The position numbers were made by a program, and so were the translations under genes. A model generated the notes under the pieces. The model was not told the origin of the DNA and ran no database searches. It saw only the letters and a program-made list of their open reading frames with translations. From positions 186,001-250,000 of the forward strand of contig VXNJ01000001.1 of NCBI GenBank assembly GCA_009840625.1: a stretch of DNA of 64,000 nt. The letters run 5' to 3'. Positions 41,672 through 47,651 of the stretch are shown here, piece after piece. This DNA comes from Chloroflexota bacterium (lineage in GTDB: Bacteria > Chloroflexota > UBA11872 > VXNJ01). Numbering within the stretch: the stretch's first letter is position 1; each line of letters opens with the position of its first letter.

Positions 41672-42607
41672 CTACCAGCCGATTTCGTAGCTGAGCAGCT
41701 TGGCGTTGATGAAGGTGACGATCGCTATGACGACAAACAGCGTGAACGATAGGGCGGCCGCGAACCCCATTTTCAGCGCCAGGAAGGCTTCCAGGTAAAT
41801 CAGCATCACGATCGTGATCGTCGAATCGACCGGCCCCCCACAGATCCGGGTGCCGTCGTCGCAGGCCATGATGAAAACCTGGGTGAACATCTGCAGGGCG
41901 CCGATGAAGTAGATGATCACCACGAAATACGTGGTCGGGGCCAGCAGCGGCACCGTCACCTTGAACATCTGCGACAGCCTTCCGGCGCCGTCGATCTCGG
42001 CCGCCTCGTATAGGTGCGGCGGGATTGACTGCAGGCCGGCCAAATAGATGACCATGTTCAGGCCCATGTTCTTCCAGATGCTCATCAGGATGATTGCCAG
42101 CAGGGCGAAATCCGGATCCCGCATCCACTTGATCGGCACCAGTCCCAGCATCTGCATGAATTCGCTGATGATGCCGGTCTGGGGTTCGTATATCCAGAGA
42201 AAGATTACCGACACCGCCACCATCGACGAGACGACCGGCATGTAGAACATCGCCCGGAAAAAGTAGATTCCGCGAATGCCGCGGTTGATCAAAACCGCCA
42301 GCAGGAGCGAAGTGATCACGCCCGCCGGTACGGTGCCGATCGCAAACAGCACGGTGTTGCGGATGGCCGGTGGGAACCGCGGCTCGCTGGAGATATCGAG
42401 GTAGTTTTCGAACCCGGCGTACCGGGGGGCGGTCAGGAGATCGTAGGTGGTGAAGCTGTAGGCGAGCGCCCCCAGGATGGGAACGATCACAAATAGGGAA
42501 ATGAACACGATCGACGGCAGGACGAACAGGTAGGCCGCGAACCCGCCGCGGAACGTGAGCCCGAACCGCGAGCGCAACGCCCGCAAAGGGACTGGATTTG
42601 CCGCCAT
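41672..42607 (-). CDS. MalF-type sugar ABC transporter permease, copy A (intact)
   Basis: 311 residues with six predicted membrane helices. The ATPase-docking EAA loop is YEAAEIDGAGRLSQMFKVTVPLLAPT near residue 200. It belongs to the MalF/UgpA-type permeases of carbohydrate importers. The ATG at 42607 has AGGGGAAG just upstream. Normally a MalF gene is followed by MalG and preceded by a binding protein; none of these is adjacent. By eye most positions are identical to copy B at 43381-44331, and the pseudogene at 45857-46845 is a third copy. Confidence 0.92.
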   Translation of the reverse strand: MAANPVPLRALRSRFGLTFRGGFAAYLFVLPSIVFISLFVIVPILGALAYSFTTYDLLTAPRYAGFENYLDISSEPRFPPAIRNTVLFAIGTVPAGVITSLLLAVLINRGIRGIYFFRAMFYMPVVSSMVAVSVIFLWIYEPQTGIISEFMQMLGLVPIKWMRDPDFALLAIILMSIWKNMGLNMVIYLAGLQSIPPHLYEAAEIDGAGRLSQMFKVTVPLLAPTTYFVVIIYFIGALQMFTQVFIMACDDGTRICGGPVDSTITIVMLIYLEAFLALKMGFAAALSFTLFVVIAIVTFINAKLLSYEIGW

Positions 42608-42767
42608 CTACTTCCCCTGACCCAGATCTGCCCTATATCCACACCGCCCGGCTCATGTTACGGGAATGGCGACAAATCCCTCGGCAATCCGCGCCCGGGG
42701 CGTTGCGGCATAGCACGCAATCCGGTTCGGATAATCGACCCGGTCAACCGGTTCGGGTCAGGCGATC

Positions 42768-43247
42768 GTGTCGAGATTCCGCATCCTCAGGGAAATCTGG
42801 CTGCCGCAGCCGCGGGAGAGGGTCTTCGAGTTCTTCGCCGACCCGCGCAACCTTGAAAAGCTCACTCCGGCATGGCTGCGGTTCGAAGTCCTGGATCCAG
42901 AATCGATCCAATTGGACGCCGGCGCATCAATCGACTACCGCTTGCGGCTGCGCGGTTTCCCGCTTCGCTGGCGCAGCCAAATCGTCATTTGGGATCCCCC
43001 GCGCAGGTTCGTTGACATCCAGATCCGCGGCCCCTACCAAGAATGGGCGCACGAGCACCGTTTCGAGTCCCAATCCGACGGGACTCTCGTAATCGACCGC
43101 GTCGACTACACGGTGCCGGGTGGGCGCCTGGTCAACCGGCTGTTTGTGCGCAGGGACCTGGAGAAGATATTCGACTACCGCACCGCCGCGTTGCGCAGCA
43201 TATTTGTACGCGGTGACGCCCGCGCCGGCCCGGCAAACCCTCCCTGA
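42768..43247 (+). CDS. SRPBCC-fold (polyketide cyclase/START-like) protein
   Basis: 159 residues with the helix-grip pattern of the SRPBCC superfamily: PRERVFEFFADPRNLEKLTPAWLRFEVL at the start, strands with YRLRLRGFPLRWRSQIVIWDPPRRFVD, and a C-terminal helix LEKIFDYRTAALRSIF. These bind hydrophobic ligands in a central pocket; the ligand is unknown. GTG start at 42768 with AGG seven bases upstream. It sits between permease copies A and B on the other strand, divergent from A by 160 nt. Confidence 0.85.
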   Translation: MSRFRILREIWLPQPRERVFEFFADPRNLEKLTPAWLRFEVLDPESIQLDAGASIDYRLRLRGFPLRWRSQIVIWDPPRRFVDIQIRGPYQEWAHEHRFESQSDGTLVIDRVDYTVPGGRLVNRLFVRRDLEKIFDYRTAALRSIFVRGDARAGPANPP

Positions 43248-43380
43248 GCGAATCAATCAAAATCTGCCCGGCAAACGTTTGCCGCATTCCGATCCGGGGC
43301 CCGGATTAAGCACTTCGACCCGGCCTGGGCAAGTTGACCGCCGTTCGCGTCCGGACCCGCACCGCCGGATGCCGCGTCGC

Positions 43381-44331
43381 TCAGTACCCGATGTCGTATG
43401 AGAGCAGTCGCGCGTTGACAGCGGTGACGATCCCGATGACCGCGAAAAGGGCGAACGAGAGCGCCGCCGCAAATCCCATCTTCAGCGCCGCGAACGCCTC
43501 CAGGTAGATAAGCATCACGATCGTGATCGTCGAGTCCACCGGACCCCCGCAGATGTTGGTCTCGTAGTCGCAGGTCATAAAGAACACCTGCGTGAACATC
43601 TGCAGGGCGCCGATGAAGTAGACGATCACCACGAAATATGTCGTCGGGGCGAGCAGTGGCAGCGTGATGCGCAAGAGCTTTTGCAGTCGACCCGCCCCGT
43701 CGATGTCGGCGGCCTCGTAAAGGTGCGGCGGGATCGATTGCAGCCCGGCCAGATAAAGGACCATGTTCAAACCCAGGTTCTTCCAAACACTCATCAGGAT
43801 GATCGAAAGCAGGGCCGTATCCGGGTCGCGGACCCACCTGATCGGCGCCATGCCCAGCGACTGCATGAACTTGCCGATGATCCCTACCTGTGGTTCGTAC
43901 AGCCAGAGAAATATGATCGAGACCGCCGCGAACGAGGAAACGACGGGCATGTAGAACATTGCCCGGAAAAAGACGATTCCGACGATGGAGCGGTTGATCA
44001 AGACCGCCAGGAGCAGTGAAATCAGCACCCCGGTGGGCACCGTGCCCAGGGCGAAGAGCAGGGTGTTGCGGACCGCGGGCGGGAATCTGGGTTCGCTGCC
44101 GAGGGCCCGGTAGTTGTCGATTCCGGTCAGTTTGGGGGCGGTCAGCAGATCGTAGGTGGTGAAGCTGTAGTAGAGGGCGGCCAGGATTGGCAGGATGATG
44201 AACACGACAATGAAAACGATGGACGGGAGGACGAACAGGTACGCGACCAGCCCGCCGCGGAAAGTCAGTCCCAGCCGGCGCCGCGCGCCGTCGCCGCGAA
44301 CCGCGCTGAATTGAGCCACCCTGCCCCGCAA
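43381..44331 (-). CDS. MalF-type sugar ABC transporter permease, copy B (intact)
   Basis: 316 residues, six predicted helices, EAA loop YEAADIDGAGRLQKLLRITLPLLAPT. Very similar to copy A over the whole length, including LYLAGLQSIPPHLYEAA and ICGGPVDSTITIVMLIYLEAF; the N-terminal 20 residues differ. It starts at a TTG (44331), and a GTG four codons downstream is an alternative. Again there is no MalG, binding protein or ATPase beside it. It is flanked by plus-strand genes for the SRPBCC protein and an M24 peptidase. Confidence 0.92.
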   Translation of the reverse strand: MRGRVAQFSAVRGDGARRRLGLTFRGGLVAYLFVLPSIVFIVVFIILPILAALYYSFTTYDLLTAPKLTGIDNYRALGSEPRFPPAVRNTLLFALGTVPTGVLISLLLAVLINRSIVGIVFFRAMFYMPVVSSFAAVSIIFLWLYEPQVGIIGKFMQSLGMAPIRWVRDPDTALLSIILMSVWKNLGLNMVLYLAGLQSIPPHLYEAADIDGAGRLQKLLRITLPLLAPTTYFVVIVYFIGALQMFTQVFFMTCDYETNICGGPVDSTITIVMLIYLEAFAALKMGFAAALSFALFAVIGIVTAVNARLLSYDIGY

Positions 44332-44411
44332 CCACCGCTTATGGTTCGTTCAAGAACTCATTATCGGTCGGGCCCACCCCGATCCCGCGCCGGCGTCGCG
44401 GCAATTGCAGA

Positions 44412-45635
44412 ATGGCCTCTGAACCGGCCGAGTTGCGGAAGGCGGTTGCCGTGCCCGTACCCGAACTGCTAAACCACGAACGCGCCATCGCCCGGATGGC
44501 CGAACGCGGCATCGATCTGCTCCTGGCCGGCGGGTACGTGAACTTCGGGTACCTCGCCGGCTTCTTCACCCATTTCGGACGCGACTTCCCGGGGCCGCTC
44601 TACAACGGACTGCCGCTGGTCCGCTTCGCCGCCCTGCCGGCCGACCCGGACATTCCGCCGTTTTTTGTCACCTGTCCCGACGAAGCCGAAGACGTGGCTT
44701 TCCAGGGCAGCTGGATCGAGGACCGCCGCTTCGTGGGTCCGGCTTCGGAGTTGCCCGGACCGGACGTTTCCCCCAACACCGAAGCCGAGCCTTTCGAGGA
44801 GTTGGCGCGCGCCCTCGCCGCCAGGGGGCTCGCGGAGGCGGTAATCGGAGTCGACCTGGCCGATATTTCTGCCCGCACCGCCAGTCGCCTGGCCGCACAT
44901 TCGCCGCTCGCCGAACTAGTCGACGCCACGCAGGACTTCATCTACGTCCGGATGGTCAAGACCCCGGCGGAACTGGCCCGGCTCGAGGGGGCCGTGGAGG
45001 GCAGCGAACGCGGACACGCAGCAGTCCCGCGGCATCTCGCCACCGGGTTGAGTGAACGCGAACTGGCCGGCCATGTTCGCCGCGCGGTCGCCGATTCCCG
45101 CACCGTTCCCTACATCTTGCACCTGAACGCCGGCCCGGTCGGCCCGACCCTGCTGCCGCCAACCGATCGGCGCATCGCACGCAATTCGGTCGTGTCGGTC
45201 GACGTCGGTTGCATTCACCGCGATTACGCCGGCGACAAGTTTCACGTGTACGCGTTCGGCGACCCTCCGCTGCGGGCATTCGAAATCCATGAAGGGCTCG
45301 ATAGGGTGAACGCGGCCCTGCTTGATGCCTTGCGACCGGGGACAAGCGGAGCTGAGCTATTTCAGCTGGGGCGGACGCGGATGGAGTCCGAGGGATTGGA
45401 AATGGCCGGGGCCTTCATTGGTCACGGAATCGGCATCGATATCCACGAAACGCCGTACCTGGCCCCGGTCGACCCGACGCCGCTTGAGGCGGGGATGGTG
45501 ATAGTCCTCGAAGCCGGAACGAGGGTCGCAGATCTAGGTCATTTCTGTTCCGAGATAACCTGCCTGATCGAGCCCGACGGCGTTCGCCCGCTCACTCGGA
45601 TCGGGCACCAGATCAGCCGCGTTGCGGCAAACTAG
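44412..45635 (+). CDS. M24 family metallopeptidase, Xaa-Pro aminopeptidase-like
   Basis: 407 residues: an N-terminal creatinase-like domain (to about 170) and a C-terminal pita-bread domain. The five metal ligands are present: Asp264 and Asp275 (VDVG and GDKF), His338 (GHGIGIDIHETP), Glu367 (LEAGT) and Glu381 (SEITCLIE). Family members cleave X-Pro bonds or hydrolyse creatine-like molecules. The Arg three after the second Asp in most prolidases is His here. Cytoplasmic. ATG at 44412. It lies between permease copies B and C, and the dipeptide importer further right would supply peptides. Confidence 0.9.
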   Translation: MASEPAELRKAVAVPVPELLNHERAIARMAERGIDLLLAGGYVNFGYLAGFFTHFGRDFPGPLYNGLPLVRFAALPADPDIPPFFVTCPDEAEDVAFQGSWIEDRRFVGPASELPGPDVSPNTEAEPFEELARALAARGLAEAVIGVDLADISARTASRLAAHSPLAELVDATQDFIYVRMVKTPAELARLEGAVEGSERGHAAVPRHLATGLSERELAGHVRRAVADSRTVPYILHLNAGPVGPTLLPPTDRRIARNSVVSVDVGCIHRDYAGDKFHVYAFGDPPLRAFEIHEGLDRVNAALLDALRPGTSGAELFQLGRTRMESEGLEMAGAFIGHGIGIDIHETPYLAPVDPTPLEAGMVIVLEAGTRVADLGHFCSEITCLIEPDGVRPLTRIGHQISRVAAN

Positions 45636-45856
45636 GCAGACTTGGTTCCGCCAGCGATCGATCGCGCGGCGGCTTCGCGCCAACCGGCGCAGCGCCTAGT
45701 CGCGTTTAGCCGAGTTTCGCGACCCGCCAGGGGTTTTCATTCGCGGATGCGAAGGGCTTATGCAGCGAGCCCGATCATGCGATGACTGGTTCGGATCCGA
45801 AGGCCATTGCCCCCGACTGCGACCGGCCCGCGGCCTGAAACCGCGAGGTCTGCCGG

Positions 45857-46845
45857 TCAGTATCCGATGTCGTAACTCAGGATTCGCGAGTTGATGATCG
45901 TGATCAGCGCGATCACCGCGAACAGGATGAAGGATAGCGCGGCGCCGAATCCCATCTTCAGGGCCAAGAACGCTTCCAAGAAAACGAGCAGAACGATCGT
46001 GATGGTGGTGTCTAAAGGTCCGCCGCAAACCATCAGAAAGTCGTCCTACAAGTCATGATGTACATCTGCACGAATACCTGCAATGCGCCAATGAAGTAAA
46101 CAATGACGACAAAGTAGGTTGTCGGTGCCAGCAGGGGCAACGTGATCCTGAACATCTTGGACACGCGGCCGGCTCCGTCGATGTCCGCCGCTTCGTACAG
46201 GTGCGGCGGGATCGACTGCAGGCCGGCCAGGTAAAGAACCATGTTGAGGCCCATGTTCTTCCAGATGCTCATGATGATGATGGCCATCAGGGCCGTTTCC
46301 GGACCCAGCAGCCACTTGGACCCCGGCAGGCCCACCGCCCGCAGGGTCTCGTTGGCGAACCCGACTTGGGGTTCGTACAGCCAGAGGAAAATCAGCGAAA
46401 CCGATACGAAAGAGGAAACGACCGGCATGTAGAACATGGCCCGGAAGAAGTAGATTCCGCGGATCGCGCGGTTGATCAGCACCGCCAACAGCAGCGAGGT
46501 GACCACCCCGGCCGGAACCGTGCCGAGCGCGAAGAACAGCGTGTTGCGTATAGCCGGGAAGAACCGGGGCTCGTCCGGCGCCTTTTGGTAGTTTTCCAGA
46601 CCAACCCATTTCGGCGGGGTGAGCAGGTCGTAGTCGGTGAAGCTGTAGTAGAGGATTCCGAAGATCGGGATGATGACGAACACCGTGATAAACAGGATCG
46701 ACGGCAGAACGAACAGGTAAGCCGTCGCTCCGCCTCGGTAAGTCAGTCCGAGCCGCCTGCGAAGCGTCATCCGGGGCGCAGTGCCAGCTTCAGTCGCCGT
46801 TTGAGGACTCCTCGATACGAATGTGCTGCACCGGCCCACTACCAC
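45857..46845 (-). pseudogene. MalF-type permease, copy C, broken by a 2-nt frameshift
   Basis: The first 270 codons match copies A and B through YFIGALQVFVQMYIMTC, then read RTTF and stop at 46033. Dropping two bases at about 46046-46047 restores DDFLMVCGGPLDTTITIVLL and the rest of the family C-terminus to RILSYDIGY and a TGA at 45857-45859. In both intact copies exactly six residues separate the Cys from CGGP, as in the restored reading. The lost part holds the last two helices, so the product should not work unless the ribosome slips. The start is unclear (GTG 46845 or ATG 46770). A sequencing error is possible. Confidence 0.88.
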
Positions 46846-47221
46846 GGACCGGTGACATCGTCGTTTTCAGTCGCGGAATGGCCTCATTGTAGCTACGGGT
46901 ACCGGCTTCGCCGCCATATCCGTGGTGTCGCCGCGGTTTGGTGCCGTAGCGCCGCAGATTCGCAATCGCGCGCGCTCAGCTACCTCGCGCGGCGCCAGGT
47001 CGTTTCACCTGGTCAATCGCCGCGGCCAGCGCGGGTGAGGAGTTGGTCCGGCGGGTTCGATTGGGTCGCTCTAGCTCACAAATCAGGCACGATTCCCCGC
47101 CCGGCGCATCCGCTTTCTTGTAGCCGCCCGAGCCCGAACCGGGAACTTGGCCGCATAGCTTCGGAAGGCCATGCGCCGCCGCTTGCGGAGGCGTGCATTC
47201 TGTAACGGATGTGCCGTTCGG
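46846..47221. other. Gap upstream of permease copy C
   Basis: About 376 nt with no convincing gene on either strand. One short perfect hairpin is present, CCAGGT (46995-47000) and ACCTGG (47007-47012) around a six-base loop. An open plus-strand frame crosses the area but is antisense to the permease copy and shows no recognisable protein. With the remnant to its right, this looks like decayed sequence left by loss of a permease gene. Confidence 0.5.
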
Positions 47222-47392
47222 TCAATACCCTACGTCCTAGCTCAGGATTCGCGAATTGATGATGTCCATCAGCGCGATCACCGCGGACAGGACGAACTAG
47301 AGCGCTGCCCCGAACCCTATCTTCAGGACCTTGAGCCATTCCAGGAATACCAGCAGCACGATCGTGATCGTGGTGTCCAAGGGTTCGCCGCA
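47222..47392 (-). pseudogene. Remnant of the C-terminus of a fourth MalF-type permease (copy D)
   Basis: On the minus strand the bases translate as CGEPLDTTITIVLLVFLE, then WLKVLKIGFGAAL, a TAG, FVLSAVIALMDIINSRILS, a TAG, and DVGY before a TGA. This is the last 55 or so residues of the permease family, closest by eye to copy C (CGGPLDTTITIVLLVFLEAFL and ALITIINSRILSYDIGY). Two in-frame stops and loss of everything upstream of the CGGP motif show a dead fragment. It lies about 260 nt before the dipeptide-type binding protein gene on the other strand. Confidence 0.85.
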
Positions 47393-47651
47393 ACCGGCGG
47401 TTGAATCTCGCCTGCGCGGAGCTGAGCGCGGCGGTCGGCTAATCACCCCCGCTTGCCCGCATCTTTCGGCCCATCCCCCGCGCCACCCGACGGTCGCCCG
47501 GACGCCCCCAATGGTGCGCCGATCGCTGGATCCCCTCCGCGGTCGCCTATCGACGTGGCCACCGGCGATTTCCATGAAGCTATCTATATTGGTGAGGGAA
47601 GCAAGCAAGTCGATCCCAGCCCGCTCCAGAAATTGCACTTAAGGCGTCAAC

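Follow-up and report, generated by a model that had tools for sequence, protein, structure and literature searches.

Why does a bacterial genome carry several copies of one half of an importer permease close together, with none of the partner genes at hand? The question is raised by a 64,000-nucleotide stretch of a Chloroflexota bacterium (assembly GCA_009840625.1, contig VXNJ01000001.1), here called the window, which corresponds to C1:186001-250000 of a 2.27 Mb genome in 20 contigs (96.6% complete, 1.3% contamination). A first-pass annotation of the window had reported an array of four permease genes of the MalF type, and all four were recovered:

41672..42607, minus strand: copy A, intact orphan MalF/UgpA-type permease of 311 amino acids (open frame; PF00528, 46.4 bits)
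43381..44331, minus strand: copy B, intact orphan MalF/UgpA-type permease of 316 amino acids with a TTG start (open frame; PF00528, 38.8 bits)
46033..46845, minus strand: first part of copy C (transmembrane helices TM1-5), orphan MalF with an open frame of 270 amino acids, frameshifted in the last outer loop (PF00528, 47.3 bits)
45857..46033, minus strand: second part of copy C (TM6, 58 amino acids), in another frame (translation)
47219..47393, minus strand: copy D, C-terminal MalF remnant of 175 nt with in-frame stops (DNA identity to the end of C; translation)

Copies A, B and the first part of C all exceed the cut-off of the BPD_transp_1 domain (PF00528, 26.4 bits). A and B are 77% identical, in protein and DNA alike, and are sisters in the tree (support 99/97), with a ratio of nonsynonymous to synonymous divergence (dN/dS) of 0.20. 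Copy D matches the end of C over 175 nt, with 81% DNA identity. The copies are separated by plus-strand genes for an SRPBCC protein (42768) and an M24 peptidase (44412), and no MalG, SBP_bac_1 or MalK-type gene, i.e. no second permease half, binding protein or ATPase, was found near A to D, both as annotated before.

The genome was searched with copy B for further members of the family. In addition to C and D, it contains 10 intact MalF genes, distributed as follows:

window (C1): A and B, intact orphans
C9:126435-130638: four tandem MalF copies, intact orphans
C1:183006-185092: two MalF copies, intact orphans
C19:29904: one MalF copy, intact orphan
C1:573941-574858: operonic MalF, part of the complete operon binding protein-MalG-MalF at C1:573.9-577.3 kb

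Only the copy at C1:573941 has MalG and binding-protein genes beside it; neither A to D nor the other orphans of this genome have them, and the orphans sit in differing gene neighbourhoods. Paired permease subunits are normally kept 1:1, and the other CUT1 permeases of this genome are indeed paired. The earlier statement that one permease half only had been duplicated thus holds genome-wide, with 10 intact MalF genes to 1 cognate MalG, and it extends to two more genera.

These genera (G001 and G003) belong, together with the genome studied here (G000), to one taxonomic family of marine Chloroflexota. Seven intact MalF genes and 2 cut by contig ends are present in G001, and 9 intact genes, 1 with an in-frame stop and 1 partial gene in G003. 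All three genomes contain exactly one orthologue of the cognate MalG (83-85% identical) and one operonic binding protein (72-80%); with a further relative of the latter (55-57%) in G000 and G003, the number of cognate binding proteins is one or two per genome. The MalF family is absent from G002 and G004 of the same taxonomic family (best matches 39-41%) and from the 36 other genomes of the class that were searched. A search of 400 genomes of the phylum yielded relatives (55-57%) in three more; the four loci concerned are without exception complete operons with one MalF to one MalG. The 1:1 ratio is therefore ancestral and the excess of MalF derived. Together, these data show that in three genera MalF alone was multiplied from an ancestral binding protein-MalF-MalG operon, the cognate MalG staying single.

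An excess of copies could also result from faulty assembly or binning, as the genome consists of 20 contigs with 1.3% contamination and the copies were counted on the assembled contigs. We consider this very improbable: the copies differ by 12-28% in DNA (at 72-77% DNA identity an artefact was called unlikely), most of them lie well inside contigs of 66-800 kb, the orphans of this genome form one clade, and two other genera have the same imbalance.

Between paralogues, dN/dS is 0.09-0.27 at a synonymous divergence (dS) of about 0.5-1, showing purifying selection on old intact copies, which makes a recent dosage amplification or an assembly duplication unlikely. The proposal of gene dosage during selection, made in the first-pass annotation, does not agree with copies that are this old and diverged and with an orphan state common to several genera. 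A local duplication hot spot had been offered as well; however, only A and B are sisters, the family is spread over three contigs, and DNA homology among the copies begins near codon 10 and ends with the stop codon, the flanks not being homologous. Recent tandem amplification was rejected because homology stops at the gene borders and because of the dS values.

In the maximum-likelihood (ML) tree, this genome's ten orphans, C among them, group in a single clade, separate from the operonic MalF (support 100/99). When close outgroups are included, these ten join the copies G001_C2/C18 and G003_C22/C34 (support 96/94); within the G001 and G003 orphans, deep branching is weakly supported. The orphan sites at G000 C9 and G003 C22 have a tRNA-Gly(TCC) gene just upstream in the same orientation, dnaE follows the orphan site in G001 C2 and G003 C22, and a TIM-barrel gene is common to the sites at G000 C9 and G001 C2. 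As tree and synteny agree, one orphan site predates the three genera and gave rise to the window copies. Within a few hundred bases of orphan MalFs there are also tRNA genes (Gly-TCC twice, Arg-TCG and Thr-CGT), at L055 7206-7283, L073 1-75, L070 8020-8095 and L063 8262-8336.

The array had been described as copies in successive states of decay. This applies to C and D, which look like losses, but not to A and B, which show no decay. In copy C, the ATG of the second part (46033-46031) overlaps the TGA of the first part (46035-46033), forming a TGATG stop/start overlap on the minus strand (window 46031-46035) in the loop preceding TM6. Compared with intact paralogues, C has dN/dS values of 0.11-0.22 in the part before the break and of 0.10-0.38 in the part behind it. 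With purifying selection on both sides, the break is either young, an assembly error or a still-working split, and copy C, instead of being dead, could be a split gene whose parts are translationally coupled. Nor can C be called a close duplicate of A and B: it shares its highest identity, 80%, with a C9 copy, and its position differs between the two trees. The expectation that the copies are each other's closest relatives was thus borne out for A and B, and not for C, by identity and in one of the two trees.

If the orphans are functional, with what would they work? The use of distant parts, suggested at first, would accord with two features of this genome: the single operon at C1:573.9-577.3 kb, and a stand-alone MalK-type ATPase at C1:386 kb (UgpC, 292 bits), whose neighbours are unrelated to transport and include no permease genes; every genome checked has only two OB_MalK proteins. 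Taking together copy numbers, history, purifying selection and the MalF/MalG divergence given below, we tentatively favour interchangeable MalF halves that would share one MalG and a stand-alone MalK-type ATPase. Each orphan MalF would pair with the one MalG, the ATPase used would be that at C1:386 kb, and the substrate would be delivered by the one or two cognate binding proteins. A more specific version, put forward with greater reserve, is a type I ATP-binding cassette (ABC) importer with one exchangeable transmembrane half, in which a single MalG, binding protein and ATPase might serve some ten MalF halves, a modular way of working like that of energy-coupling factor (ECF) transporters and built from MalF/MalG parts.

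Invariant positions were counted over the nine intact orphans, with loops and helices taken from hydropathy, which suggests about six membrane helices; a structure model of B, from seven sequences, was too poor to be of use (predicted local distance difference test, pLDDT, 44.6). Predicted TM3-TM5 and the EAA loop are invariant at 64-81% of positions, TM1 and TM6 at 44-50%, and the predicted outer loops at 19-44%. In the EAA loop, the block YEAA-IDGAGR aligns to YEASAMDGAG of MalF and is nearly invariant in all copies. With exchangeable halves, the translocation core and the ATPase-contact loop would be the constant part, and the outer loops that would face the binding protein, the promoter and the neighbourhood the varying part. 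The positions aligned with the contact residues of E. coli MalF, which we take to be Y325, S329, N376, L379, G380, Y383, S433, F436 and N437, are invariant in the orphans, so that a switch of substrate is less probable than altered docking or regulation. The benefit would be one importer in several versions that differ in how they are regulated or how they dock.

The same alignment bears on two other explanations. According to the first, the orphan MalFs work without MalG, as homodimers with the shared ATPase and a binding protein. They have no MalG neighbour and have kept the EAA loop, and homodimeric permease pairs such as MetI and ModB are known from other type I importers. However, homodimers are not the rule in CUT1, the orphans are still close to the operonic MalF beside MalG, and their core is nearly invariant, though self-pairing should mark the core; we regard homodimers as improbable. 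According to the second, the substrate of the importer depends on which orphan MalF it contains, the membrane sugar site of E. coli MalFGK2 being formed by MalF alone (PMC3150292). The differing neighbourhoods of the orphans would fit this, but the only one or two cognate binding proteins per genome and the invariant contact positions do not, which makes such an exchange of substrates more doubtful still. Diversification of the substrate at the membrane site was rejected on the invariance of these positions.

Rates of divergence were also compared. The mean ML distance between the three genera is 0.645 for the operonic MalF, 0.194 for MalG and 0.387 for the binding protein. The MalF/MalG ratio is therefore 3.3, against about 0.9-1.2 in the outgroups, where the distances are about equal (MalF 0.46-0.81, MalG 0.53-0.70). 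In a paired control system of the same genomes, the dN of MalF and MalG are about equal (ratio about 1), and the cognate MalG has roughly half the dN of a control MalG. The idea that MalG is a hub under extra constraint was nevertheless rejected: once distances are scaled to the outgroups, MalG does not differ in behaviour from the binding protein and it is MalF that stands out, and our claim is hence limited to an altered MalF:MalG ratio.

An operonic MalF that diverges faster than MalG and the binding protein is expected if the copies cover for one another. This would be a redundant birth and death, in which MalF is duplicated frequently and spare or dosage copies are temporarily under ordinary purifying selection and then decay, without any new mode of assembly. 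The broken copies C and D, the G003 copy with an in-frame stop and the invariant sugar-site positions agree with it. On the other hand, dN/dS values of 0.09-0.27 at dS 0.5-1 outlast the usual life of a useless duplicate, the orphan state is common to three genera with one conserved site, and an extra MalF alone yields no additional importers unless MalF is limiting. Redundancy is, in our view, unlikely, although it is to be taken seriously.

Exchangeable MalF halves, among which copies would likewise be born and lost over time, have several points against them. The orphan MalFs are known here from their genes. MalG and the binding protein scale normally to the outgroups, leaving MalF as the outlier, and redundancy alone could cause that. 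TM1 and TM6 are nearly as variable as some outer loops, and variable outer loops are common to most permeases. Finally, the sugar-site positions do not vary and no change of specificity is visible.

At one locus in G001 (L060 6633-8478, contig C17), an orphan MalG from another CUT1 family is followed after 46 nt by an orphan MalF, with no binding-protein gene adjoining. This MalG is 56-65% identical to the other CUT1 family and about 35% to the cognate MalG; the arrangement hints that MalF can change partner. Binding proteins also occur apart from permeases: the second, orphan binding protein of G000, related to the operonic one (55-57%), is intact (L076 6897-8597, contig C11) and its G003 counterpart (C3:66016-67181) is interrupted by a stop, and two similar SBP_bac_1-type genes lie in tandem at G000 C1:361-364 kb (L075 7813-11062) with no permease genes adjoining.

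Among NCBIfam models, A and B match UgpA best (138-150 bits, below the cut-off of 335), and MalF with 65-69 bits (below the cut-off of 392). PF00528 and the EAA loop are shared with the CUT1 importers UgpABCE, MalFGK2-MalE and AlgM1/AlgM2, the closest solved relatives being AlgM1 and MalF, and likewise one operon with binding protein and MalG is present here. In contrast to these importers, there are many MalF to one MalG, with scattered orphans, and the large P2 insertion of MalF is missing (311-316 amino acids versus 514 in 2r6g). In the CUT1 systems with a shared ATPase (MsiK of Streptomyces, MsmK of streptococci), a MalK/UgpC-type ATPase lies apart from the permeases, as it does here, and probably serves several importers; there the ATPase is shared, whereas here a permease half (MalG) seems to be shared too. 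ECF transporters would work alike, with one common module and several exchangeable membrane subunits, but there is no homology: their S-components are not BPD_transp_1 permeases and have no binding protein, whereas the subunits described here match PF00528. A literature search found nothing direct on orphan or multiplied MalF.

In each of the three genera, conserved sulfatases flank the operon; a second CUT1 system, with properly paired MalF-MalG (L079, L086, L087), likewise has flanking sulfatases in all of them. Sulfatase matches number 46, 53 and 66 in G000, G001 and G003, which have the MalF expansion, and 11 in G002, a genome of the same family that is larger and lacks the expansion. Proximity of the orphans to sulfatases was discarded as an argument: some do adjoin one, but in these genomes 14-18% of the sequence is no more than about 5 kb away from a sulfatase. 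Given this high background, nothing is claimed beyond the conserved synteny of the operon, and sulfated glycans or organosulfates are no more than a lead; the cargo would perhaps be glycans or other substances on which the many sulfatases act. For another candidate phylum, one paper mentions many ABC permeases alongside sulfatases (PMC5596340). By its many sulfatases and enolase-like neighbours, the organism appears to resemble SAR202 groups I/II (PMC6946804). The paralogue expansions of SAR202 (FMNO, enolase superfamily, dioxygenases, sulfatases; PMC6946804) concern the same kind of organism, with the same lineage-specific style and many sulfatases; they are, however, of enzymes, and the main text of that paper names no permease or transporter.

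The one-sided expansion of a transporter subunit is true and unusual: one half was multiplied in three genera, with its partner single and well conserved. The pattern is firm; the function is not. With it, the paralogue expansions already described for these ocean bacteria come to include a transporter subunit. Should the halves be exchangeable, this would be a simple means of diversifying an importer, and the naturally occurring variants would reveal which face of MalF has to fit MalG and which the binding protein.
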